Under the pieces are notes generated by a model. That model was given only the letters and a program-made list of their open reading frames with translations, was not told where the DNA came from and did not search any database. From Sulfolobus sp. A20 (GTDB lineage Archaea; Thermoproteota; Thermoprotei_A; Sulfolobales; Sulfolobaceae), in assembly GCF_001719125.1 (NCBI RefSeq), contig NZ_CP017006.1, positions 1 through 64,000 of the forward strand: DNA of 64,000 bases. Direction: 5' to 3'. Within the stretch, counting starts at the first letter, position 1. Every line of letters begins with the position of its first letter. This document shows, in pieces, positions 13 to 51,037 of this stretch. The position numbers were made by a program, and so were the translations under genes.

Positions 13-3000
13 ATACTAACGAAACTAAAACCCGGAGTTCTCGCGGTAAAGAGTCCTCCCACATTAGTACTAACGACAAGAAACTAAAACTTAGGAGCCA
101 CTGTTCCAGAACCACCTGAGCCAGAGGGTACTAACGACAAGAAACTAAAACTCACAATAAAACACATTTTCCTTACCAGCTACAGTGTACTAACGACAAG
201 AAACTAAAACGTTATAATAGTTGTTACATCCAAAAAATGAATAAAGTACTAACGACAAGAAACTAAAACGGAGGAAGTGCTAAGCTGTTGAAGTTCTGGG
301 TCTTCATGTACTAACGACAAGAAACTAAAACTTAGTAAAAAATTCTACATTTGATGTAAACATTTTAGTACTAACGACAAGAAACTAAAACTGCGTAAGA
401 TTTCCACCAACTTCATTACCACGTACTAACGACAAGAAACTAAAACTTATGTCTTCAACTCCCCTTATTATAGGAGAAAGGTACTAACGACAAGAAACTA
501 AAACTGCAGACGTCTGTAGTTTTACAGTATAATAATATAGAAGTACTAACGACAAGAAACTAAAACTTGAACAGTAAGCCTTATCAAACGGCATATCCAG
601 ATGTACTAACGACAAGAAACTAAAACCTGTAGTTGTTTCCCGTATTGGTAAATAGGAGAAAGGTACTAACGACAAGAAACTAAAACTCAAACTTCTCGGT
701 GAAGAGGACATGGAATGCAGGGTACTAACGACAAGAAACTAAAACGTGCCGGTAGTGCCGGTGCCGGTGGTAGTGGTGGGTACTAACGACAAGAAACTAA
801 AACTTTCCACCATTAAGCGTATATGATGTGCCGTTAAGCGTTAGTACTAACGACAAGAAACTAAAACCCGAAGTGTAGACAGTCTGAGTAAGATTTCCAC
901 GTACTAACGACAAGAAACTAAAACCCCTGAGTTCAGTTTGAGTCTGGTTTGGTAAGGTAGGTACTAACGACAAGAAACTAAAACATATGGCTATTTTTAG
1001 AGCTACAATTTCAACTGTTTGTACTAACGACAAGAAACTAAAACATTTTCGAAATGCCTTAAGCCCTAACTCGATTTCGTACTAACGACAAGAAACTAAA
1101 ACAGAAATTTTAATGTGGGGGGGTGTATTTACCGCGAGGTACTAACGACAAGAAACTAAAACGAAAATCCCGAGAATTTTGATCCGCTTTTAGACTTTGT
1201 ACTAACGACAAGAAACTAAAACTACAGGCTAGCATGCCCAATCATCTACCTTCAGGGTACTAACGACAAGAAACTAAAACTAGCTCCAATTTGGTAATTC
1301 TACAGACCAGTTGAAGTACTAACGACAAGAAACTAAAACAGAGATCGACAAAGACATTAGGGAACCTAATGAAGTACTAACGACAAGAAACTAAAACATA
1401 AAAATTTCCACAAGAGAAAGCTGAAAAAAGAGTACTAACGACAAGAAACTAAAACAATAACTCTGGTACTGGTATCAGTAATTCTAATCCATATGTACTA
1501 ACGACAAGAAACTAAAACTTACATGGTATTGGGTAGGTACAGTTTGGGACAGAGGTACTAACGACAAGAAACTAAAACAATCTTGTTTCCATTAACGCGA
1601 GAGCTTCCTCTTTTGTACTAACGACAAGAAACTAAAACTGTACATAGAGAGATGGGGCGATTTTGTTAGAAGCGTACTAACGACAAGAAACTAAAACCTA
1701 GTAACCTTCTGGTATTCATATAATAATGGAATATCGTACTAACGACAAGAAACTAAAACTATCTACAAATCGTGTTGTTTAACGATCTCAAAAGGTACTA
1801 ACGACAAGAAACTAAAACAATCCAAATGATATTATTCAGATGAAATTAATTGTGTACTAACGACAAGAAACTAAAACATAAACGTAATTGAATGGGACGG
1901 CGTATCGGACATGTACTAACGACAAGAAACTAAAACGCATCAGAAAGGACTTCTGGTTTAGTGGGATATTATGTGTACTAACGACAAGAAACTAAAACCC
2001 GACACTGTATCGCTCTCCGTGGACTGACCCACAGTACTAACGACAAGAAACTAAAACGTTAACCCGTTAGATACTAGTGGAAACATTAAGGTGTACTAAC
2101 GACAAGAAACTAAAACTGGTCGCTACCCGCATAGACCTTCCAGGCAGCCGTACTAACGACAAGAAACTAAAACATGAAAGATGTTACCATGTGGGATAAT
2201 CATACCTGTACTAACGACAAGAAACTAAAACATCTCTAGTTTCCAAAGTAATAAAGGGGTTATCAGAGTACTAACGACAAGAAACTAAAACATGAGAGAT
2301 GGAAGATTGATGATAATTCCAATAAAAGTACTAACGACAAGAAACTAAAACAATACTCATATGATTAAGATAACCGGGGTGGTATATAGTACTAACGACA
2401 AGAAACTAAAACTCCATCCCCTAAATTCTGCGTTTTGTTTCTTTACTTGTACTAACGACAAGAAACTAAAACAAAATGAATCTATCAATAATATATGGTT
2501 TTCTCCAATGTACTAACGACAAGAAACTAAAACTCGCCAAGCATCGATGGTTACGTCGTATTTTACAAGGTACTAACGACAAGAAACTAAAACAATTAGT
2601 GCGGTAGATTTAAGGGTTAACGTATTGCAGTACTAACGACAAGAAACTAAAACAACACAACCACATTGAACTATAACTATACAAAACGTACTAACGACAA
2701 GAAACTAAAACTCTTTTTCATTATTTTTGCTCTGGTATAGACGTCTTGTACTAACGACAAGAAACTAAAACTAAGACTTATCACGCCAGTAACAAATATC
2801 CGCTTATGTACTAACGACAAGAAACTAAAACCCTTATTTACCCAGTAAACATAGAGTCCACTAAGTACTAACGACAAGAAACTAAAACGAGTATCTAAGG
2901 GGGGTCAAGATAGGATATATTAAGTACTAACGACAAGAAACTAAAACTCACGATGAGAACCGAGGGAAAAAAGGCATATTGTACTAACGACAAGAAACTA

Positions 3001-5467
3001 AAACTATTTCTGAAATCACTGGCAACTACATCAGCGAAGTACTAACGACAAGAAACTAAAACTTTATGTTTTTGAACCTCCGGATCATCAAAATCGATAA
3101 TCTTGTACTAACGACAAGAAACTAAAACGCCATTGAGTCAAGTTAGAGACATAGTTGCTACAAGTACTAACGACAAGAAACTAAAACATGTGAAAAAAGG
3201 GAGACAGCGAAAAAGATAATAGGTACTAACGACAAGAAACTAAAACTGGCTTAGGGACTTAATATATCCATGTGGTTCCGTTCCAAATGTACTAACGACA
3301 AGAAACTAAAACCTCTCATCTCAGCAAATAATGCCACTTTCAACAGGGTGTACTAACGACAAGAAACTAAAACCTAACACCCCCACCACCAAAAAACCCC
3401 GGTAAGGGTACTAACGACAAGAAACTAAAACATCGAGAGGAATAAGCGGATATTTGTTACTGGCGTGATATGTACTAACGACAAGAAACTAAAACTCCAT
3501 GGGTTGTCCTAGCATTTCGTAATCCTCAGTACTAACGACAAGAAACTAAAACACACTACACAATAGATATCGCTGATCGTGAAATGCTGTACTAACGACA
3601 AGAAACTAAAACTAGTTGCTGCTCTAATTTCTTAAGCCTTAGTTTGTACTAACGACAAGAAACTAAAACTTCTGGATCGCTTGGACTGCTGTGGTAGTAG
3701 TCTGTGTACTAACGACAAGAAACTAAAACATTGCTTGCCAGATCGTTGAGCAAAGGTGATGATGTGTACTAACGACAAGAAACTAAAACTAGCGCATATT
3801 CCAGTTGCTTGTAGATTCCTAAATCGTACTAACGACAAGAAACTAAAACGCCAATTCTCTGTTGGTAGCATCTCCTAGTGTAAAGTTGTACTAACGACAA
3901 GAAACTAAAACAGTGGAATCCAGGCTACAACCAATATATTAGTGTAGTACTAACGACAAGAAACTAAAACACTTGGACTGATGCAGTACCCCCAGTAATC
4001 GCCTCATAGTACTAACGACAAGAAACTAAAACCTAAATCCAAACATCTCTGAAAGCTTATCGGTAAAGTACTAACGACAAGAAACTAAAACTAAAAACGA
4101 CACGATGGTAGTGCAAACGGTTGAGAGTACTAACGACAAGAAACTAAAACATAATGAGGGCTGGCGCTGCGCGGTTTGAACTGAAGGGTACTAACGACAA
4201 GAAACTAAAACGCTCCTAGGGACTATTGGAGGGGCATTTATCTTAAGCGTACTAACGACAAGAAACTAAAACGAGGAGGGTAGGTTTGTGGGATGGCGAT
4301 ATCTTAGTACTAACGACAAGAAACTAAAACTTGTTCTCCCCATCTGACACTGTACCTTTCAGAAGTACTAACGACAAGAAACTAAAACCAAAATCCTAAT
4401 TCTTTTCAAATTCCAGCTGGTAGTACTAACGACAAGAAACTAAAACACCTTAATATTATTAGTTTGGTAAATGATCTCTTGTACTAACGACAAGAAACTA
4501 AAACTGGCTTTTCCAATACCCCCACAACAACAATATCATCGTACTAACGACAAGAAACTAAAACACGAGTATGTCTGCATAAAAACAAAACAAAGGTATT
4601 TTGTACTAACGACAAGAAACTAAAACATTACTCACAATTGGTGTAGTTATAATTATCCTATTGTACTAACGACAAGAAACTAAAACTGTTTTAATTTAGG
4701 ATTTATTGGTGAATATGCAATTGTACTAACGACAAGAAACTAAAACTTTCAACGTATTTGTATCCAAAATCTTGTTGACGAGTACTAACGACAAGAAACT
4801 AAAACATGAAAATGAGATACGCCGTCTTAGATCAAAACAATGTACTAACGACAAGAAACTAAAACATTAGCCGTAAAGCATTTACAAGGACAAACACAAT
4901 GTACTAACGACAAGAAACTAAAACTGGTAACCCAACTTATGAAATTGCCCCCATACCAATTGTACTAACGACAAGAAACTAAAACGCAAGCTGCCGGAGT
5001 ACCAGGTTGTCTCCAGGCTAGGCTTGTAGTACTAACGACAAGAAACTAAAACGTGGTTACAGCAGCTTTCCCAGTGTTATCTTGTACCAATATATTGTAC
5101 TAACGACAAGAAACTAAAACATTTCAGGGTTCTCTCCTAGCTCGATCCACGCTTTGTACTAACGACAAGAAACTAAAACATAGCAGAAGGTGGTATGTTA
5201 AACATAGTAGCAGCGTACTAACGACAAGAAACTAAAACTACTTGCCGTTAAGCCTGAAAACACTGCCATTGATTGTACTAACGACAAGAAACTAAAACTT
5301 TGACGCTCCTGCAGGACTTCGATTCGAGATAGTGTACTAACGACAAGAAACTAAAACACATAAATCTGGGGGGCTACTGATTTTCATGGCTTGTACTAAC
5401 GACAAGAAACTAAAACTTGTAGGGAACAAGATGTTGAGTTTGCCGAAGAGATTGTACTAACGACGAG
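13..5467 (+). CRISPR. CRISPR array A, about 92 repeats of 24 nt
   Basis: About 92 copies of a 24-nt repeat beginning GTACTAACGAC and ending GAAACTAAAAC, separated by unique spacers of about 30-44 nt. The first visible copy (13-31) has lost five bases. The last (from 5454) keeps only about 14 bases, with one mismatch, before a MITE begins. The 3' end ACTAAAAC resembles the 8-nt crRNA handle of other repeats (ATTGAAAS type). From this I infer + strand transcription and a leader to the left of the window, so the array may continue past base 1. The repeat has no strong palindrome. The many small ORFs here, with recurring FSFLSLV peptides, are artefacts of the repeat. Confidence 0.97.
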
Positions 5468-13880: not shown

Positions 13881-16800
13881 CTTCCAATCCCTTGTGGGAC
13901 GCATCGTAGTATATTCCCAGTTTACTTCAATGTATCAAGTTTTGTCTTTCAATCCCTTATGGGATGCATCTTGACAACTTAACAGTAGACGATATCTATA
14001 AGCTAATAAGCTTTCAATCCCGTTTGGGATGCATCTCTTCTACTTGAGTCCACATTCGGACTTGACCTCTTCGGCTTTCAATCCCGTTTAGGATGCATCT
14101 TTACGCAATAACAGCATATGTTCAACTGCCTACTGGCTTTCAATCCCGTTTGGGATGCATCTTTAATTCTCCAACTCCTTCAACATAGTAAGCTACCTTT
14201 CAATCCCGTTTGGGATGCATCGAAAAAGTACTGCGGAAATAGGGAATAAAATTATAAATCTAACTTTTAATCCCGTTAAGGATGCATCAGAGTTTTTTTG
14301 GTAAAAGAAGGTAAAAGTATAAAATTTGACTTTCAATCCCGTTAAGGATGCATCAAATGTGTGAAGCACAAATCGATCCCCAAATCCAGGAATTCTTTCA
14401 ATCCCGTTAAGGATACATCTCGTGTTCTTAGCCAATTTGTACAACAAATAACAAAGTGACTTTCAATCCCGTTAAGGATACATCTTGAGCAGACACAGGA
14501 ATAGCATGGGTTGGAACAATTTAGCTTTCAATCCCGTTAAGGATGCATCGAGGAAGATAAGGACACTGATCCTCGTAACTGATGGCATCTTTCAATCCCG
14601 TTAAGGATGCATCGGAACCGTATAAGGAATACATACATAGGGCATGGGGGACCTTTCAATCCCGTTAAGGATGCATCAGGTGGTGAGACATTCCTTTACC
14701 TAAATCAAACTATAACTTTCAATCCCGTTAAGGATGCATCAGATCCACCTAGCGTTACTAAGTTTACGGAAAGAGAGACTTTCAATCCCGTTAAGGATGC
14801 ATCGGGATCTTTGATGTAATTTACGGTCTATCGTTCCTAGGCTTTCAATCCCGTTAAGGATGCATCGTGAACTGGGATTACTAAAGTGGGAAAATGAGGA
14901 TAAGCACTTTCAATCCCGTTAAGGATGCATCAAGCCACAATATTATGCTTTAGCAAAAATACAAGTACATACTTTCAATCCCGTTAAGGATGCATCGTCT
15001 ATTATATGTCACTGATTACCAATGTTAAAATTGACTTTCAATCCCGTTAAGGATGCATCTCATATAAGCTGTATGATTGCCATACAATTTTGTAAACCTT
15101 TCAATCCCGTTAAGGATGCATCAGTAAACAAACATTTGCTCTAGTTCAGCAGAGCACACAGTTCTTTCAATCCCGTTAAGGATGCATCCATACCGAATGG
15201 GGCACAGAGTCACAATGTTGCTTATGTCTTTCAATCCCGTTAAGGATGCATCAAAAAATCAATTTCTATAGTATAAAGATTTTAGAAGAAATCTTTCAAT
15301 CCCGTTAAGGATGCATCAAAAAAATATGATATAAACTTTTTATACAAAAGATTTCTATTCTTTCAATCCCGTTAAGGATGCATCCAGTCTCAAACCACAC
15401 AAACCCAAATTAAACAAAAATCCTCTTTCAATCCCGTTAAGGATGCATCTTGATGAGAGCAGACCCAGTAACAGCTATGAATTCTTTTTACTTTCAATCC
15501 CGTTAAGGATGCATCTTTTTTTATACGCAGATGTTAATAAACTGAAAATAGTTTACTTTCAATCCCGTTAAGGATGCATCGTTTGGATGCTGGGTCTGCA
15601 CCGTAGTCAAGAACGATACTTTCAATCCCGTTAAGGATGCATCAGTAAACAAACATTTGCTCTAGTTCAGCAGAGCACACAGTTCTTTCAATCCCGTTAA
15701 GGATGCATCCATACCGAATGGGGCACAGAGTCACAATGTTGCTTATGTCTTTCAATCCCGTTAAGGATGCATCAAAAAATCAATTTCTATAGTATAAAGA
15801 TTTTAGAAGAAATCTTTCAATCCCGTTAAGGATGCATCAAAAAAATATGATATAAACTTTTTATACAAAAGATTTCTATTCTTTCAATCCCGTTAAGGAT
15901 GCATCCAGTCTCAAACCACACAAACCCAAATTAAACAAAAAATCCTCTTTCAATCCCGTTAAGGATGCATCTTGATGAGAGCAGACCCAGTAACAGCTAT
16001 GAATTCTTTTTACTTTCAATCCCGTTAAGGATGCATCTTTTTTTATACGCAGATGTTAATAAACTGAAAATAGTTTACTTTCAATCCCGTTAAGGATGCA
16101 TCGTTTGGATGCTGGGTCTGCACCGTAGTCAAGAACGATACTTTCAATCCCGTTAAGGATGCATCTATAAAAGGTTTATTAATATACGTTTTCATAATTT
16201 CTTTCTTTCAATCCCGTTAAGGATGCATCAGGGTGGCTAATGAGAGATGGTGAAACTGTTGAGATACTTTCAATCCCGTTAAGGATGCATCCGGACATAC
16301 TAATAGCGCTTAGCCAAGAACCTTTAACAACTTTCAATCCCGTTAAGGATGCATCTTGCAGAGTTCACAGGTCACAAGTTAACTAAAAGACCTTTCAATC
16401 CCGTTAAGGATGCATCAGTAAACAAAATGTGTTGGTCTACAAACTTAATGTCAGAGATCTTTCAATCCCGTTAAGGATGCATCAAATCACTATTTTTTAG
16501 ACCTATGTTTTTACAAAATTATACCTTTCAATCCCGTTAAGGATGCATCACAAAGAGAGCTATGAGCTTGGCTGTGACTGTCATGACTTTCAATCCCGTT
16601 AAGGATGCATCATATTCTCTTCTAACACTTCATAGTCTTCTAATGTGTTGCTTTCAATCCCGTTAAGGATGCATCCATCCCTATTAACATTAAGGATCCC
16701 AGAGGATGGGCCTTTCAATCCCGTTAAGGATGCATCAAAAGGCTAGTAGTTAAAGATGAGCTCAACGTTTACGTCTTTCAATCCCGTTAAGGATGCATCT

Positions 16801-18271
16801 GTGATGAATATTATTCGTTATGAGCCCCTAGATTTTAGCTTTCAATCCCGTTAAGGATGCATCACTATTTTTCTCTTGATGTGCCCCCTAAATTTTGTGA
16901 ACCCTTTCAATCCCGTTAAGGATGCATCAATATCTCACTGATCTTATACTTTATCATTCCAATCTCCTTTCAATCCCGTTAAGGATGCATCTGCGAGATA
17001 AGGAAAGGAGTCCAGCAATCGAATCAATCTTTCAATCCCGTTAAGGATGCATCTAAAGATTATTACCTTATTATAAGGGTGAAACAAATGACTTTCAATC
17101 CCGTTAAGGATGCATCTTAAAGTCAGTGATTGGTAATAGGAAAATTATTGGACATTTCTTTCAATCCCGTTAAGGATGCATCAAGAGGATAGCTGAGAAG
17201 TTTAAAGAGAAATATGGAGTCTTTCAATCCCGTTAAGGATGCATCGTTGAGAGTAAGACCTAGGGAAGGGTTTGATATATTTGCTCTCTTTCAATCCCGT
17301 TAAGGATGCATCTAAAAGGTGCGGATAAGGGTAAAAAGTACGTATTAGACTTTCAATCCCGTTAAGGATGCATCCTAGCGTTGAAACGTAACATCACTAG
17401 GAGCGAGCTTATACTTTCAATCCCGTTAAGGATGCATCAAAAAACTAATTTTTCGATTTTTTCAAAAAGGCTTAACTTTCAATCCCGTTAAGGATGCATC
17501 GTTACTCACGACATGGTCTTTTCGGCAATAAAGAGATTAACTTTCAATCCCGTTAAGGATGCATCAAACCTATGGAAAATTAACCCCTTAAACTTCAAGA
17601 TGTCTTTCAATCCCGTTAAGGATGCATCCCAGATACATCGCCAGAAGGTACACCGAAACTGTTATACCTTTCAATCCCGTTAAGGATGCATCTGATTTCT
17701 TGTGATCTTATGCGAAATCTTGCGAAATCTCTTTCAATCCCGTTAAGGATGCATCAAAGAACCTGCAGGAACTCTGGCACGGGATAAAAAATAGCTTTCA
17801 ATCCCGTTAAGGATGCATCATCAAGGTAAACCCTCAGACTATATAGTGACTCCTTCCCTCTTTCAATCCCGTTAAGGATGCATCTTGTTTACTCCCCAGT
17901 GTACACTTAATAAAAAAAGGACTTTCAATCCCGTTAAGGATGCATCCTAATATAATCTAGATCTTTGCCCTCCATTTTATAATAACTTTCAATCCCGTTA
18001 AGGATGCATCGCTGGGCCAACGACAGAAGCTACATCTTTCATTGCATTATCTTTCAATCCCGTTAAGGATGCATCATATTCAAAGTGCGTATACTTATAA
18101 ACTCTCTGACATTTTCTTTCAATCCCGTTAAGGATGCATCCTTCTATAAACTGTTGAATTTCCTCTTTTGTCCCAATAACTTTCAATCCCGTTAAGGATG
18201 CATCATATCATTCCAGCGGATCAAATGGGAAATCATATCCACGTAACTTTCAATCCCGTTAAGGATGCATC
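13881..18271 (-). CRISPR. CRISPR array B, about 69 repeats of 25 nt
   Basis: About 69 copies of a 25-nt repeat reading, on the plus strand, CTTTCAATCCCGTTAAGG plus ATGCATC, with spacers of about 36-43 nt. On the minus strand the repeat ends ATTGAAAG, the standard Sulfolobales crRNA 5' handle, so transcription runs leftward from a leader at 18272 onward. In agreement, the repeats at the left (leader-distal) end are degenerate: 13881 has CTTGTGGGACGCATC, 13946 has CTTATGGGATGCATC, and 14011-14221 have CGTTTGGGATGCATC or a close variant. Units between 15123 and about 16165 form a tandem duplication of eight repeat-spacers. Confidence 0.98.
15123..16165 (-). repeat. Tandem duplication of eight repeat-spacer units in array B
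   Basis: The spacers starting at 15123 (AGTAAACAAACATTTGC...), then CATACCGAATGG..., through to GTTTGGATGCTGGG... at 15581, recur in the same order from 15644 to 16103 and beyond. The offset is 521-522 bp. The only difference I see is one extra A in the A-run of the fifth spacer (near 15940). This is most simply unequal recombination between repeats rather than repeated acquisition. Confidence 0.95.
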
Positions 18272-20511: not shown

Positions 20512-21867
20512 ATGGGTAATAAGATAGTAATTGCCTCCTGGGGAGACCCTTCTGCATGGAGAAAAGTGAAATACTTTGGCGAGCAGACGGATAAAGAGCC
20601 CGTTGAATCGATATCCTCACTCAAGCTGATCAGCGAAATGTTTAGTGACATAGAGAAGTTCTACATATTCGTACAAGATTCACTAGCCCAAAACCTAAGA
20701 TACACGAAGACGTTAAGTCGTGTGCCGAAAATGAAAAACTATACTCTAGTATAAAACGCAGCTCTAATACACAATCTGAAGACGTGGCCAACCGAGAGGA
20801 TAGGCTCCTACAAGGACCTAGTGGAAAAGGTCCGTAACTATATCTCTTGCATAGTCTCTAAACTAGGGATAAAAAATCACGAAGTCCTAGTACTCCCCTC
20901 ACGCATAGAGATCAAGTTAGAGAGTGAACCTACACCATACTACACCTCGTTCAGCTCTACCTCCGACTACGACTTCATGTACTCAGTGGGCTTAGTAGCG
21001 CTCTACGAGAAAATAAACCAAAACGTGGAGGAAATAATCGTCGACACTACGCACGGGATCAACTACTTCACGATAATGACACAGCTATTAGCTAGGGACT
21101 TAGCAAGTATACTCTCGGTAAAGCAGAGAGAGACTAAGGTAAAGGTTAGCTACTACAACGCCATCCCCAAGACCATCGGCGAGTTCTTAATGGCTAAAGT
21201 GTACAGTGACGCTAAGCCTAGCATAAGGGCACTTGACCAGCTGAGTAACAACGAACTGCGTATAGCTTACAACACCCTAAACTATAACGCTCCACTAGCC
21301 CTCGTATACTTCCTAAAAGAGTTTAACGAAAAGATCCCTAAGCTAGACGAGATTTACAGTAAAGTGAAGTTAAGTGAGGAACAGGGGAAGTTGAGAGTAG
21401 ACTACAACCTCATAGGGCAGGGAGTGAAGAAGATGAACGACACTTACCTCAAGCTCTTGATGAGGACAATTAAGGACAACTTCAACGTAAATGGGGACGT
21501 GAGCGTAAAGCTACTCAGGGACATAACTGACATAGTATACAAGCTCATATCAGAGGCTTCGTCCTCTATCATCATACGTGAGCTCGACAAGTTGTTCAAT
21601 TGCGTGAGGGATAATGCAGAAATGATAGCTAGTAAGGGCAAGGTGAATTATAAGGATATATACCCTATGTGTACTCAATCTAACACCGGAGAGGCCCAAG
21701 GATGTGAGGAAGTCTTAAGTGAAGATAATAAGAGGAACTTCATAGCCCACGGAGGGCTGCTAGAGGAGATCGTTGAGATTAAAGTCACTAATGAAGTGAG
21801 CAAGGAGAACATATTCCTATCGTACGGGAAATGTTGGGAAAAAGTTAAGGAATTCCTTTCGAAGTAG
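20512..21867 (+). pseudogene. csx1: csx1 (CARF-HEPN ribonuclease) interrupted by one in-frame stop
   Basis: Reading from ATG 20512 to 21867 gives 451 codons in a single frame with one TAA at 20752-20754 (codon 81). The frame continues without a shift (NAALIHNLKTWPTERIGSY...) into the open part, which could restart at GTG 20821. The N-terminus MGNKIVIASWGDPSAW is a CARF-type opening, DTTHGINYF near codon 178 is the CARF signature of Csx1, and RNFIAHGG near codon 408 is the HEPN Rx4H RNase motif. The family is usually about 450 aa, so only the stop is abnormal. Csx1 proteins are cOA-activated RNases acting with type III complexes. A sequencing error, a real knock-out or read-through are all possible. 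Confidence 0.85.
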
Positions 21868-32090: not shown

Positions 32091-32103
32091 AGAGGTGATA
32101 GAA

Positions 32104-32805
32104 ATGTTGTTGGCTGAAGTTTATGTTAGTCCAGAAAATAACGCTATAATTCCTCCTTTTTCCAGTAAGGTCGGCAAAACGCTCTTAATAAACCCCAAAA
32201 ACGTTGCAATATCTCCGTTAAAATATAAGGGTAAATACTTTATAAAGTACTCTGAAGTTCCAACCTATCTAGAAGTGTTTCCAAGTCAGCTTTACTCCTT
32301 TGAGGTTGGTGGAGATGAGGATAGTGTTACTATGGCATTAGCTCACTTGGAAGATAGAAAAGTGTTCAACACACTTTGGAGAGTTAAAGACGTTGTAGTG
32401 AGTGAAATTGAGATTGATGGATATAAGAAGATTGAACTAGAAGTCTTAACTCCCGCTTTACTAGTGAATCCCTTCATAAAGAGCAAGAGAAAGATATTTA
32501 CTAATAGACCGTCTGTTGTCTTTTTTAACAATTTAATTGACGTAACTGGGCTTAAGAGGGGTGAGGAAAAGTTAAATTATTTATTAAATAGGCTAGACCA
32601 TTTACTTTGGGAAGACCCATCTATCGTTAAATACGCAAAGGTGGTTTATGCCGGAAAAGAGGTGATAGGACTTGTCGGAAAACTCAGATATTCCCTCACG
32701 AACGAGGATGATATCGTTTATAAAGTATTGGAGAGCGTTGCGTCAAAGGGAATTGGATCATCTAGACGAAACGGGTTTGGAAGAGTAAGAGTGAGGGGTG
32801 ATTAA
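32104..32805 (+). CDS. cas6: Second Cas6 crRNA-processing endoribonuclease
   Basis: About 233 aa, related to the Cas6 at 22339. The N-terminus NNAIIPPFSSKVGKTLLIN and the C-terminal Gly-rich loop KGIGSSRRNGFGRVRV are in the same relative places. ATG 32104 is chosen because AGGTGAT lies 4 nt upstream; GTG 32095 is inside that SD. The end overlaps the next gene's SD. With two repeat families in the window, the two Cas6 proteins may process different repeats. Confidence 0.85.
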   Translation: MLLAEVYVSPENNAIIPPFSSKVGKTLLINPKNVAISPLKYKGKYFIKYSEVPTYLEVFPSQLYSFEVGGDEDSVTMALAHLEDRKVFNTLWRVKDVVVSEIEIDGYKKIELEVLTPALLVNPFIKSKRKIFTNRPSVVFFNNLIDVTGLKRGEEKLNYLLNRLDHLLWEDPSIVKYAKVVYAGKEVIGLVGKLRYSLTNEDDIVYKVLESVASKGIGSSRRNGFGRVRVRGD

Positions 32806-32806
32806 G

Positions 32807-33451
32807 ATGGTAATTATCATCACTCCATTAATCAACAGTATGGACTATATTTTTAAAGAGGTGTATTACACTAAGAACGTTAAAGAGATTAAGGTATTGA
32901 CCTACGCTAACACTGATACGTCTACCTTAGAACATTTCATGAAAATTATTGGCATAAAGGTAAACAAGAAAGTCATTGAGTTAAACGCTGACCTTATGCT
33001 ATCCATCATTGACGTTATAAAATGGATAAAGACAAACTCAAATGGGAATCATTACGAACTAGTGCTAACACCTGAGGCTGTTGAGCTAAACATTATATTA
33101 ATTGGAGCATTCTTATTGATGAATAGGGAAGGAATTGCTGTAGTTTACGACGAGAAAGGTGACAGATTTGAGATAGATATGTCAATTTTTAAGGGTATAG
33201 ATTTAGATGATAGGGATCTGGATTTACTTAGAGCTTTAGTAAATAAGCCCTTGAGTAGTAAGGATATACATGATCTGTTTACGAGTAAGATGAATTTGAG
33301 TAAGTCTACTGCGTATAGGGTGTTAAACAAACTAGAAAAGGATAAATACATAGAGAAGTCTGGAGATAAGTATACTATCAGTAAGAAGGGACTAATAGCT
33401 TTAGAAGCATTAAGTTTGAACTTTAAGCATTGTGTTGAGCAAATAAGTTAA
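32807..33451 (+). CDS. csa3: CARF-winged-helix transcription regulator (Csa3-like)
   Basis: About 214 aa. The N-terminal 130 residues look like a CARF/Rossmann domain (VVIIITPLINSMDYIF, then a strand-helix pattern and YELVLTPEAVELNIILIGAF). A winged helix follows (LSSKDIHDLFTSKMNLSKSTAYRVLNKLE, DKYIEKSGDKYTISKKG). Csa3 proteins bind cyclic tetra-adenylate and control cas genes and spacer uptake in Sulfolobus. ATG 32807 has GGTGAT 4 nt upstream. Its place beside divergent cas operons suggests it regulates them and that it reads the cOA made by the Cas10 proteins. Confidence 0.82.
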   Translation: MVIIITPLINSMDYIFKEVYYTKNVKEIKVLTYANTDTSTLEHFMKIIGIKVNKKVIELNADLMLSIIDVIKWIKTNSNGNHYELVLTPEAVELNIILIGAFLLMNREGIAVVYDEKGDRFEIDMSIFKGIDLDDRDLDLLRALVNKPLSSKDIHDLFTSKMNLSKSTAYRVLNKLEKDKYIEKSGDKYTISKKGLIALEALSLNFKHCVEQIS

Positions 33452-35988: not shown

Positions 35989-36573
35989 ATGACTGAGATT
36001 GAGGAAGATAAGATTTTAGAAATTATAAAAGGTTCAAATAAGGATGGAGTAACTATTAGCGTAATATATGGTAAATTAGGTATAAGTGTTCGTGCTAAGG
36101 CTGATGAGGGAAAAAGAGAGGAAGTAAAGAAGTTATTAGATGATTTAATTAAAAAAGGTGCAATAAAAGAGAAGACTAAGGGAAAGACTAAAAGATATTA
36201 TTTCGTTAAGGAGGTGAGGGAGGAAAGAGAGGAGGCTTTGGAAAAAGGGCTAGAAAGTATAATTAAAAAAGTAGTACAAGAGGCTTTGGAAAAAGGGCTA
36301 GAAAGTATAATTAAAAAAGCGCTCCTAGAAATTTTGGAGATTTACTTTGGAAATAGTAAGACTGAAAAGGACTTCGATAAAATATATGAAGACGTTAAGG
36401 ACTCATTTGGATATGCTAGACTAGATAATATAAGGAAGCAATTGGGGATGACGGAAGAGCAATTTTATGGACGCTTTAGGGAACACATTATGAAAAATTA
36501 TGAACTAATACAAGGTGGACAAGAGGGAATGATTTTGCATGGAGTTCTTTATGGCATTATAAAGAAGAGGTGA
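35989..36573 (+). CDS. Winged-helix protein, partner of the AAA ATPase
   Basis: 194 aa. The N-terminal 70 residues form a winged helix (EEDKILEIIKGSNKDGVTIS, then KKLLDDLIKKGAIKEKTKGK and RYYF). A charged helical linker contains the unit EALEKGLESIIKK twice, encoded by an exact 40-bp repeat with 48-bp period. The C-terminal helical domain (DFDKIYEDVKDSFGYARL, QLGMTEEQFYGRFREHI) could be a second DNA-binding or oligomerisation part. TTTTTAAAT about 26 bp upstream gives a leaderless start. The end overlaps the SD of the ATPase gene. Probably a DNA-binding subunit or repressor for the pair. Confidence 0.68.
   Translation: MTEIEEDKILEIIKGSNKDGVTISVIYGKLGISVRAKADEGKREEVKKLLDDLIKKGAIKEKTKGKTKRYYFVKEVREEREEALEKGLESIIKKVVQEALEKGLESIIKKALLEILEIYFGNSKTEKDFDKIYEDVKDSFGYARLDNIRKQLGMTEEQFYGRFREHIMKNYELIQGGQEGMILHGVLYGIIKKR
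36232..36319 (+). repeat. 48-bp tandem duplication in the winged-helix gene
   Basis: GAGGCTTTGGAAAAAGGGCT and the bases that follow (40 bp) occur identically at 36232 and 36280, so the frame is kept and the helical linker is lengthened by 16 residues. The lack of mismatches implies a recent event or gene conversion. Confidence 0.9.
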
Positions 36574-36578
36574 TCTTA

Positions 36579-37916
36579 ATGGTTTGTGAATTCCCCGAGT
36601 ATACTGTGACGCAATGGAATACTAAGCCTAAATTGGGTGGAAGGAGGTGGGTCGAGGGTGTTAAGGAGTTGGAAAGTATTATAATAAAGAGTGGGTTTGG
36701 GGTAGGGGTCATCGTAGGCGATCCGGGGATGGGAAAGACTGCTTTACTTCTATCCCTAAAAGATAGATTAGCTAATAGTGGTTTTCATGTAGTCTTCATG
36801 GACCTAGCTGGTAAGGATAACTTAGTTGAGGAATTTTGGAAAAATATTAATATGGATAGGCTAAGAGAAGAGGCATATGGTTTCTTGTATAAAAATAGGA
36901 AAAACATAGGGTACAGAGGATCTGCTAAACTATTCAAGGAATTTAACGCGTGGTTAAAAATAAGATGCAAGAAACGTGATTATAACGATGATTACGCTCA
37001 CGTATTCAAGATTTACTGTAACTCTTACTCTGATAGTATAGATGATATGATAAGTTTGATTGATGATATAAGTAGATTAGGAAAGAGCGTTGTATTGCTA
37101 ATTGACGAGACTAGGAACGTAGAGGGGATAATAAAGCCTTTACACAGACTTTTAAATTCTAATTTGAACTTTAAACTCGTCTTAACTATAATCCCAGATG
37201 TTCTTGAATCAATAACTGATGGTGCAATAAGGAGAAGACTAGAGAGTGATGCTTTAAGGATTAATCTTTCACCCCCAATAAATGACGATGAGGTAAGAGG
37301 AATTTTAAGTGCCTATTGTGAAGAATACGCTGATGTATTGGCAAATGCTGTGAAGGGAAGTAAGACCGTTAACGAAATCCTAATAAATGCTAGGGAGAGG
37401 TATGAGGAGGCTCTCCATAACTGTGTTGGATCATCTTCTGAGTGTATAAAAGGGTTCTTAAGTGGTCTTCCAAGCATAGAAAGTCCTCAAGAGGTATCTA
37501 AGAAGTTGGAGGGTATAATTAGGGATGGTATAAATAGTTTAAGAGAACAATTTGGTATTGAATACGTTCATGATAAGGGAAAGAAAATGGTAAATCCAGA
37601 TAACCAAACAGTTATTCCAGATATTTATTTTAGGACTAAAAATAAGGTTTACATCGGAGATATTAAGATTAGTAATAGGAACAGTATAGATAGTAAAGAG
37701 TTAAAAAATGTGATGAAGTTTTCGAGGATAAAGAGGGATGAGGAAACCAATAATGAAGTGGTCAAGTTTATAATATCTAACGTAGACAATGTCGATGTTC
37801 CTGCTGGAGTAAAGGTGTTTAAAATAGATAACGAGAAGATAAACAAGATTATTAATGGAGATCGTGAATTGTTACTCCAAGAATTGCGAAGGATTTTGAA
37901 AGAGCTAGTATCGTGA
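36579..37916 (+). CDS. AAA ATPase with C-terminal PD-(D/E)XK-type domain
   Basis: About 445 aa. Walker A VGDPGMGKTALL near 47-58, Walker B KSVVLLIDETRN near 171, a sensor-like arginine segment (IRRRLESDALRIN), then a helical lid. The C-terminal 120 residues contain TVIPDIYFRTKNKVYIGDIK, which fits a restriction-endonuclease fold (D347, then D and K in GDIK near 360). ATG 36579 is preceded by AGGTGAT at 4 nt. The mix of ATPase and nuclease-like domains, a small wHTH partner and proximity to the CRISPR loci fit a defence-type NTPase, but this is inference; ATPases of this kind also act in chromosome or plasmid maintenance. Confidence 0.72.
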   Translation: MVCEFPEYTVTQWNTKPKLGGRRWVEGVKELESIIIKSGFGVGVIVGDPGMGKTALLLSLKDRLANSGFHVVFMDLAGKDNLVEEFWKNINMDRLREEAYGFLYKNRKNIGYRGSAKLFKEFNAWLKIRCKKRDYNDDYAHVFKIYCNSYSDSIDDMISLIDDISRLGKSVVLLIDETRNVEGIIKPLHRLLNSNLNFKLVLTIIPDVLESITDGAIRRRLESDALRINLSPPINDDEVRGILSAYCEEYADVLANAVKGSKTVNEILINARERYEEALHNCVGSSSECIKGFLSGLPSIESPQEVSKKLEGIIRDGINSLREQFGIEYVHDKGKKMVNPDNQTVIPDIYFRTKNKVYIGDIKISNRNSIDSKELKNVMKFSRIKRDEETNNEVVKFIISNVDNVDVPAGVKVFKIDNEKINKIINGDRELLLQELRRILKELVS

Positions 37917-38117
37917 GATCTTCCTTAAAGCTAATTTTACGTGTTTACAATTACCTCTTATTGCGAATCCTTTACAGCTACAGCTAGCCCTCAAATTGCC
38001 TTGGGTATATTGGATTCTCACCATATAACTTTCTAAAGGATTACTCTCACTATTAATTACGAAAAGATAAGACATTGTGCCCTCGTTCACAGATTTGCTT
38101 ATTAAGTATGGGTACAT
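37905..38117 (-). CDS. Small SWIM zinc-finger protein
   Basis: 70 aa. The C-terminal half reads ASCSCKGFAIRGNCKHVKLA, a clear SWIM motif (CxC-x8-CxH) that binds zinc and often contacts DNA or proteins. It is convergent with the ATPase gene and overlaps its last 12 bases. Stand-alone SWIM proteins occur in archaea as partners of recombination (Shu2-like) or transposon genes. The role here is unknown. Confidence 0.75.
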   Translation of the reverse strand: MYPYLISKSVNEGTMSYLFVINSESNPLESYMVRIQYTQGNLRASCSCKGFAIRGNCKHVKLALRKISRY

Positions 38118-49977: not shown

Positions 49978-50271
49978 TTAAAATTCAATATATTTATCGG
50001 CATCAGGATCTGGATGGGCTGTGACTAATATTAACTCATTATTCTTGTTCTTGGCAATAATGTATCTTATTTTAGCACAAGATTTAAAGTGGATAATCAC
50101 TCTCCATCTTTCAATTTCTCCTAAGCGTGTATTCGGAACTTGTAGTGTTCCTTTTACCCTCTCAAGGAAAGATAGCACTTCACTACCGAGTGGGTCAATA
50201 TCGTTAAACCCTTTCATATAGTTTCTTATATCTTCGAGGTGTTTCCGCAAATGATTAGAGAAGATCAGCAT
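49978..50271 (-). CDS. Toxin-like small protein (DUF4258/RelE-like guess)
   Basis: 97 aa. The first half is helical (LRKHLEDIRNYMKGFNDIDP), the second half beta-rich (GEIERWRVIIHFKSCAKIRY, IIAKNKNNELILVTAHPDPD). This layout and length fit a small RNase-toxin-type fold. It overlaps the 3' end of the upstream gene by 17 nt, as toxin-antitoxin pairs often do. No motif proves the class. Confidence 0.5.
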   Translation of the reverse strand: MLIFSNHLRKHLEDIRNYMKGFNDIDPLGSEVLSFLERVKGTLQVPNTRLGEIERWRVIIHFKSCAKIRYIIAKNKNNELILVTAHPDPDADKYIEF

Positions 50272-50773
50272 GCATTAGCACTTTTTCACTATCCATTGTG
50301 TCCTTTATTTCTATCTCTATCTTTAACGGTCTGTATAATTTGTCTAGCTTAATTATAACCTCCCCTTCTATATGAGCCCAATGCTCAACAACTCCCTCTG
50401 CCAAGGTTATTTCCATAATATAATCTTTTAGAAATTTTATTTCATTATTCGCTCTCTCTATCTCATTAATCACTTTTTCACTATCCATTGTGTCCTTTAT
50501 TTCTATCTCTATCTTTAACGGTCTGTATAATTTGTCTAGCTTAATTATAACCTCCCCTTCTATATGAGCCCAATGCTCAACAACTCCTTCGTTGAGATCA
50601 ACGTATATCCAACCATGCTCAGCTTTAACCTTAGACTTTGCCCTTATTCTTGACGCCTCAGATAAAATTTCTTCAGGCGATAAAGGTATATCTATGATTG
50701 GTTTCCCATTCTTTCTTAAATACTCAGCGTACTTCTCCAGAAACTCAGCGTACTTCTCTAGCTGTTCTTCCAT
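50255..50773 (-). CDS. Antitoxin-like protein with duplicated C-terminal module
   Basis: About 172 aa from ATG 50773, which sits about 24 bp after the TATA-like AATTTTATATC and is favoured over the upstream ATG 50815. N-terminal helices repeat the unit LEKYAEFLEKYAEYL. DIPLSPEEILSEASRIRAK resembles an antitoxin DNA-binding or linker helix. A 39-residue beta module beginning EGVVEHWAHIEGEVIIKL and ending KDTMDSEKV occurs twice, separated by about 25 residues. The duplication is exact in DNA too. Cognate to the following gene by overlap. Confidence 0.6.
   Translation of the reverse strand: MEEQLEKYAEFLEKYAEYLRKNGKPIIDIPLSPEEILSEASRIRAKSKVKAEHGWIYVDLNEGVVEHWAHIEGEVIIKLDKLYRPLKIEIEIKDTMDSEKVINEIERANNEIKFLKDYIMEITLAEGVVEHWAHIEGEVIIKLDKLYRPLKIEIEIKDTMDSEKVLMHADLL
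50279..50587. repeat. Pair of identical 117-bp direct repeats within the antitoxin-like gene
   Basis: 50279-50395 and 50471-50587 are identical as far as I can read, starting CACTTTTTCACTATCCATTG and ending CAACAACTCC, offset 192 bp. The reading frame is the same in both, so 39 residues are repeated. The 75 bp between them codes for the linker NEIERANNEIKFLKDYIMEI. Confidence 0.92.
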
Positions 50774-51037
50774 AGTGAATATTTGGAATCTAAAGATATA
50801 AAATTGTATAGTCATAATGCGATTATATGCTTGACTTCCTCTCCACCACGAAGGGAGGGGCTTTTCCTCATATTTTATAAAAAATTATTGATATTCTTAA
50901 AAATTTTTAGTAGACTTAATCTGGTGAATGTACTCTTTTTAAACTACCAATCTAGAACGTAAAGGATTTTAATCTCATTTCAAACATAGTTTAGATTCTG
51001 GTAAATACTTATATTTCTAGTTTATAATAAGAGAATT

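Follow-up and report, generated by a model that had tools for sequence, protein, structure and literature searches.

Do a winged-helix gene and an ATPase gene located near CRISPR loci in Sulfolobus sp. A20 form a defence system, or do they belong to a more general chromosomal machinery? The window analysed here, i.e. the whole stretch of 64,000 nucleotides, contains such a pair, hereafter W and A (Table 1). The initial annotation, made from the sequence alone, described the pair together with an overlapping SWIM zinc protein as a cassette of unrecognized composition, and considered ATP-driven sensing joined to a nuclease domain to be a common defence design. The composition was also not recognized in our searches, as PADLOC gave no match to W and only generic P-loop matches to A, the best being mad8 (E 9e-4 over residues 47–149).

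Architecture of the W–A locus

Genes W and A are consecutive on the forward strand and overlap by four bases (GTGA). Relatives of A begin at ‘MVCEF’, and the true start of A is therefore probably the ATG at 36579, which lies five bases past the W stop codon and behind a GAGGTGAT ribosome-binding site; translation from there would yield a protein of 445 aa. Either start would be compatible with translational coupling to W. The TATA-like box upstream of W, an arrangement that is also present in the related loci L033 and L034, would predict that the pair has its own promoter and a leaderless mRNA.

Table 1 Features of the W–A locus and its surroundings in the window.
Feature	Position	Strand	Remarks
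CRISPR array	66–5416		
CRISPR array	14329–18271		
Cas6 and Csa3-like genes	32095–33451		2.5 kb from W–A
TATA-like box, TTTTTAAA	35958..35965	+	~27 bases 5' of the W start codon; sequence reading
W, tandem winged-helix, coiled-coil protein	35989–36573	+	194 aa
W N-terminal winged helix, residues 1–73	35989..36207	+	AlphaFold model and structural matches
W helical linker, predicted coiled coil, residues 76–120	36214..36348	+	Sequence, AlphaFold model
W C-terminal winged-helix-like domain	36364..36570	+	AlphaFold model, relatives' sequences
A, Orc1/Cdc6-like AAA+ ATPase with C-terminal PD-(D/E)XK-like domain	36570–37916	+	448 aa
Walker A, GDPGMGKT, A residues 50–57	36717..36740	+	Conserved in relatives
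Walker B, D179-E180 of A	37104..37109	+	Invariant in family alignment
PD-(D/E)XK-like C-terminal domain of A, residues 306–448	37485..37913	+	AlphaFold model, DUF234 profile match
E314 of A, putative catalytic Glu	37509..37511	+	In first helix
D351 of A, putative catalytic Asp	37620..37622	+	14/14 accessory copies, 2/27 core copies
D364-I365-K366 of A, (D/E)xK motif	37659..37667	+	
SWIM ORF	37905–38117	−	Pfam SWIM, E 6e-5

W matches Penicillinase_R above the Pfam cut-off (E 3e-5) and was modelled by AlphaFold (pLDDT 84.7) as a winged helix-turn-helix, a helical linker and a second winged helix-turn-helix. MarR, BlaI, RPC6 and similar proteins were found as structural matches of the N-terminal winged helix (Z 8.4–9.8), while the most conserved part of the protein is the C-terminal domain, which includes the motif YxLIxGGxEG...YGIIK. 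The Sul7s winged-helix family was considered as a possible identity of W and rejected as different, being 59 aa in size (PMC8998557). The linker contains two exact copies of a 39-bp direct repeat, EALEKGLESIIKK, with a 48-bp period (36234–36320), evidently a recent in-frame duplication.

A belongs to the AAA+ family by its Walker A motif, its Walker B motif and its fold. It matches AAA_22 above the Pfam cut-off (E 2e-9), the Walker motifs are conserved in all 41 Sulfolobaceae copies, and the AlphaFold model has a mean pLDDT of 90.8. The structure search covered residues 1–300, and its match lists were headed by AAA+ folds only; the best match was the archaeal Orc1/Cdc6 structure 1w5t (Z 15.5, 3.8 Å over 236 residues), followed at some distance by MuB, DnaA, BrxC and TnsC.

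The C-terminal domain of A had been read as an apparent PD-(D/E)XK nuclease, and several lines of evidence are in favor of this reading. The predicted order of its elements (helix, strands, helix, strand, helices) fits that of PD-(D/E)XK domains, and the putative catalytic residues E314, D351 and D364-x-K366 are in place. A sequence search with this domain against Pfam and solved structures gave chance-level matches only, among them NERD (nuclease-related domain), matched by two members with a best E of 0.03, and no direct Pfam match to DUF234 (PF03008) was obtained. In profile comparisons using hhalign, the domain aligned with DUF234, which we take to be a PD-(D/E)XK domain, at an E of 9e-5 and a probability of 59%, with the Glu, the Asp and the (D/E)xK in register; unrelated control profiles scored E 0.02 or worse. 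The Hjc profile also placed its motif in register, without significance.

The SWIM ORF is convergent with A, overlaps it by 12 bases and is a real match to its profile, as the initial annotation had it, but it is not a member of the cassette. It is absent from all 40 other W–A loci, and its relatives are located away from W–A, in Saccharolobus-like genomes, in Aramenus and in one other genus. We therefore rejected the SWIM gene as a third component and attribute its position next to the pair to chance.

Core and accessory copies in Sulfolobaceae

W was found directly upstream of A at 41 of the 41 ATPase loci examined in Sulfolobaceae, a pairing that is well above chance and that, together with the overlap of the two genes, agrees with the co-translation proposed at the outset. 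A is present in 29 of the 31 genomes. The two genomes without any W–A pair, G020 and G021, make up the whole of one genus. A peptide pattern taken from the window protein retrieved no named genome, whereas a pattern from the family alignment gave three named matches, in Metallosphaera and Aramenus.

A tree of the 41 loci separates 27 core copies, which form one clade (support 100/99) and branch broadly by genus, from 14 accessory copies that fall outside this clade. Core copies are under strong purifying selection, with a dN/dS of about 0.06. The window pair is one of the 14, and its genome carries both kinds. As an accessory paralogue, the pair in the window belongs to a conserved, undescribed module that has a vertically inherited core copy in nearly every Sulfolobaceae genome. 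No description or function of the module was found in the open literature, the coverage of which was incomplete and makes this weak evidence of novelty; in the main text of the S. islandicus essential-gene paper (PMC6249222) the W–A pair is not named.

The two kinds of copies differ in their nuclease centre. E314, D351, (D/E)364 and K366 are all kept in 14 of 14 accessory copies, whereas at least one of these residues is missing in each of the 27 core copies: D351 is absent in 25, and the remaining two carry N364/V366 or R366. The accessory copies would thus appear to be under pressure to keep the predicted cutting centre. Loss of the DxK residues in relatives had been named as evidence against the initial reading; a loss of nuclease-centre residues is seen throughout the core copies but not in the window's own clade.

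Apart from W, core copies have no conserved neighbour beyond the genus level, and accessory copies share no neighbours except transposon-like and carrier genes. The Cas12f matches seen near accessory copies are probably TnpB proteins of transposons. In G026, G028 and G015, A or W is represented by degenerate fragments that contain stop codons or are reduced to short frames, indicating that accessory copies also get lost.

Relatives of the pair in other Thermoproteota

In the rest of the order, the ATPase profile retrieved generic P-loops only, and most non-Sulfolobaceae families of the order gave no match in the sample searched. The W profile detected homologues across the phylum Thermoproteota, and in the 20 loci retrieved outside the family an ATPase gene directly follows W, overlapping it or at most 45 bases away. 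Homologous pairs in these further families are typically present once per genome. W-linked ATPases of about 530–550 aa, found in lineages that we take to be Nitrosopumilaceae, Nitrososphaeraceae and Nitrosocaldaceae, are full-length homologues of A (hhalign 98% / 99%, E 1e-13 / 1e-21). In a second set of lineages, presumably Thermoproteaceae and Caldivirga relatives, the partner of W is an ATPase of 250–280 aa that has no C-terminal domain and shares a short N-terminal segment of the Sulfolobaceae type (Cys-x-x-Pro-x-x-x-V-like).

The nuclease motif is also lost in the Nitrososphaeria-like relatives, while L110 and L125, from two other lineages, retain the D and a DVK. As the centre is lost in core copies and other relatives and the ATP site is kept in all 41 Sulfolobaceae copies, the shared function of the module does not need cutting.

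Two local arrangements were observed in these lineages. In many genomes the Thermoproteaceae-like pairs (L146–L156, L164, L165) adjoin a divergent endonuclease III-like gene and lie upstream of a carboxypeptidase-like gene (both named by eye), the former neighbour hinting at a link to DNA repair. The Nitrososphaeria-like pairs (L107–L118, L121–L124, L162, L163) often have a conserved small protein of ~140 aa encoded directly downstream.

Transfer of the accessory pair between genera

Distances between genomes calculated from accessory copies conflict with those from core copies, with ratios from 0.21 to 5.3. G023 and G002, which belong to different genera, have in common a 2.2-kb block of 90% DNA identity with unrelated flanks. 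The block consists of W–A, the promoter region and a short 3' flank, and extends from ~50 bases before W to a few hundred bases after A; the dS in A between the two genomes is 0.18. In G023, A faces a convergent CARF gene, the last 52 codons of which are left in G002 (96% identical); this implies that the transferred block once included the CARF gene. Judged from these alignments, members of the window's subclade passed between genera as a cassette that includes a predicted promoter. The dN/dS of L033 versus L034 is 0.50, compared to 0.06–0.08 in other pairs; this fits conflict and relaxed constraint alike, and may reflect relaxed constraint.

Plasmid partition or viral origin of W–A was rejected, since plasmid and phage records included no W–A matches and the two matches on viral contigs were P-loop fragments only.

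CRISPR neighbourhood

That the cassette lies near CRISPR loci, as first noted, was confirmed by the two arrays and the Cas6/Csa3-like genes of the window, and the proximity recurs in three of the four members of its subclade. An array is located within 10 kb of the window pair, L033 and L034 and of none of the remaining Sulfolobaceae copies, which include all 37 outside the subclade. The probability that all three array-adjacent loci fall by chance inside a given four-member clade is 4/10660 (about 4e-4), a figure that comes from a post hoc test on loci lacking full independence. The G023 cassette has a 67-repeat array at a distance of 2.3 kb and is close to a type III operon of the same kind as that of the window, at the opposite end of the operon, and the arrangement is therefore not a simple inherited order. 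The G002 cassette adjoins cas3, cas8a and cas6; no Cas1 or RAMP match was found anywhere in that genome. The fourth member of the clade, in G010, is about 150 kb from CRISPR loci, and the ten accessory copies outside the clade have no array within 10 kb. W–A does not exhibit the constant association with cas genes that characterizes CRISPR–Cas components. CRISPR regions of Sulfolobales are insertion hot spots, and the adjacency of W–A may thus be hitch-hiking.

Of the defence design suggested initially, the CRISPR neighbourhood holds for the window's own subclade, but the pair as such is not primarily a defence system: it is a core, inherited module without conserved defence neighbours. Likewise, the association with chromosomal housekeeping that had been put forward as contrary evidence applies to the core relatives, which look like housekeeping genes, and not to the clade of the window.

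Other features of the window were also observed. The two arrays have different repeats, with GTACTAACGACAAGAAAC and CTTTCAATCCCGTTAAGG cores. A Csx1/Csm6-like CARF-HEPN protein (20821–21867) matches its profile from position 64 onwards, and its N-terminus seems to be missing or disrupted. A small protein (50255–50815) contains a perfect internal repeat, GVVEHWAHIEGEVIIKLDKLYRPLKIEIEIKDTMDSEKV, twice.

Possible function of W–A

Our observations comprise the pairing, homology, ATP site and predicted folds of W–A, the contrast in catalytic residues between the two kinds of copies, the transfer and the CRISPR adjacency; from them we infer roles in binding, assembly, cutting and defence. W would hold DNA with its two winged helices. 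A would act as an Orc1/Cdc6-like AAA+ switch, in which ATP binding leads to assembly on the W-bound DNA, and its C-terminal PD-(D/E)XK domain would cut the DNA. The window-type copy keeps its centre, was transferred between genera and tends to be adjacent to CRISPR loci, and thus probably acts against incoming DNA. We give about an even chance to this explanation, i.e. that W–A is a two-gene DNA-targeting machine whose window copy is directed against incoming DNA.

Alternatively, W–A may be a duplicated housekeeping machine for chromosome maintenance (replication, repair or segregation), the window copy being an extra version with no defence role. Such a role would be in line with the presence of A in 29 of 31 Sulfolobaceae genomes and of typically one homologous pair per genome in further Thermoproteota families, with the Orc/Cdc6-like AAA+ domain and the core dN/dS of about 0.06, and with the endonuclease III-like gene, named by eye, beside the Thermoproteaceae-like pairs. 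However, the window clade is patchy, was transferred between genera and keeps the nuclease centre that the core has lost, and we consider a pure maintenance function rather unlikely.

The movement of a 2.2-kb cassette between genera, into unrelated flanks, could also reflect self-spreading, in which W–A resembles a TnsC/TnsA-type or homing system and cuts targets such as CRISPR regions. While the AAA+ domain does resemble TnsC and MuB, and within Sulfolobaceae the nuclease centre is kept only in the accessory (mobile) copies, neither an integrase, a DDE transposase nor terminal inverted repeats were seen in the gene lists and aligned flanks; moreover, the core module is vertically inherited and W–A did not occur in phage or plasmid records. 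Self-spreading is in our opinion quite improbable. The least probable reading is that W–A locally regulates CRISPR genes or signalling by ATP-dependent promoter binding of W, without cutting. The two winged helices of W and its resemblance to MarR/BlaI repressors point in this direction, as do the adjoining CRISPR loci and the CARF gene that is convergent in G023 and left as a 52-aa remnant in G002, but the majority of accessory copies lie well away from CRISPR loci, and retention of E-D-(D/E)xK in every accessory copy would be left unexplained.

Returning to the DNA-targeting machine, a spare mobile copy of a pair whose centre is decayed or missing in many archaea may have been turned to defence. 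A broader scenario, which we offer tentatively and regard as possible though doubtful, is that W–A is an unrecognized, ancient DNA machine of Thermoproteota built as a split initiator, with the winged helices and the Orc-like AAA+ in adjacent genes; in several lineages, adoption of a chromosomal role would have inactivated or removed the nuclease, and the nuclease-competent mobile copies would serve in CRISPR-linked defence.

W–A is an adjacent gene pair conserved across much of Thermoproteota for which no assigned function was found in the open literature. The same cell carries a core copy predicted to be nuclease-dead and a mobile copy predicted to be nuclease-intact, which makes the role of the module with and without cutting directly comparable. 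Should the mobile copy prove defensive, it would illustrate the conversion of a chromosomal ATPase to immunity and extend the known ATP-driven nucleases by an Orc-like design.

Comparison with known systems

BREX BrxC has a related AAA+ arrangement (Z about 13.5) and a defence context, but the match is to the AAA+ part only, and no other BREX component is known for W–A. TnsC and MuB are similar to A in their AAA+ fold, and TnsA is the PD-(D/E)XK nuclease partner of TnsC. Unlike these systems, W–A has neither a transposase nor transposon ends in the gene lists and aligned flanks, and we know of no counterpart of W in them. Orc1/Cdc6 is similar in the AAA+ domain (Z up to 15.5) and in the use of winged helices for DNA. 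However, Orc1/Cdc6 combines AAA+ and winged helix in one chain, whereas A is modelled as AAA+, lid and nuclease-like domain; W–A provides its winged helices in trans, has the extra nuclease-like domain and its own partner gene, and forms a separate family.

The closest known design is that of the archaeal ATPase_2–DUF234 proteins (PF01637 and PF03008). Both these and A are about 450 aa long, with an AAA+ domain followed by a C-terminal E-D-(D/E)xK domain, but the PF01637 match of A is under the cut-off (26.9 versus 33.2 bits). In DUF234 proteins the winged helix is part of the ATPase chain, while the model of A has none there, its winged helices being encoded separately in the co-translated W.
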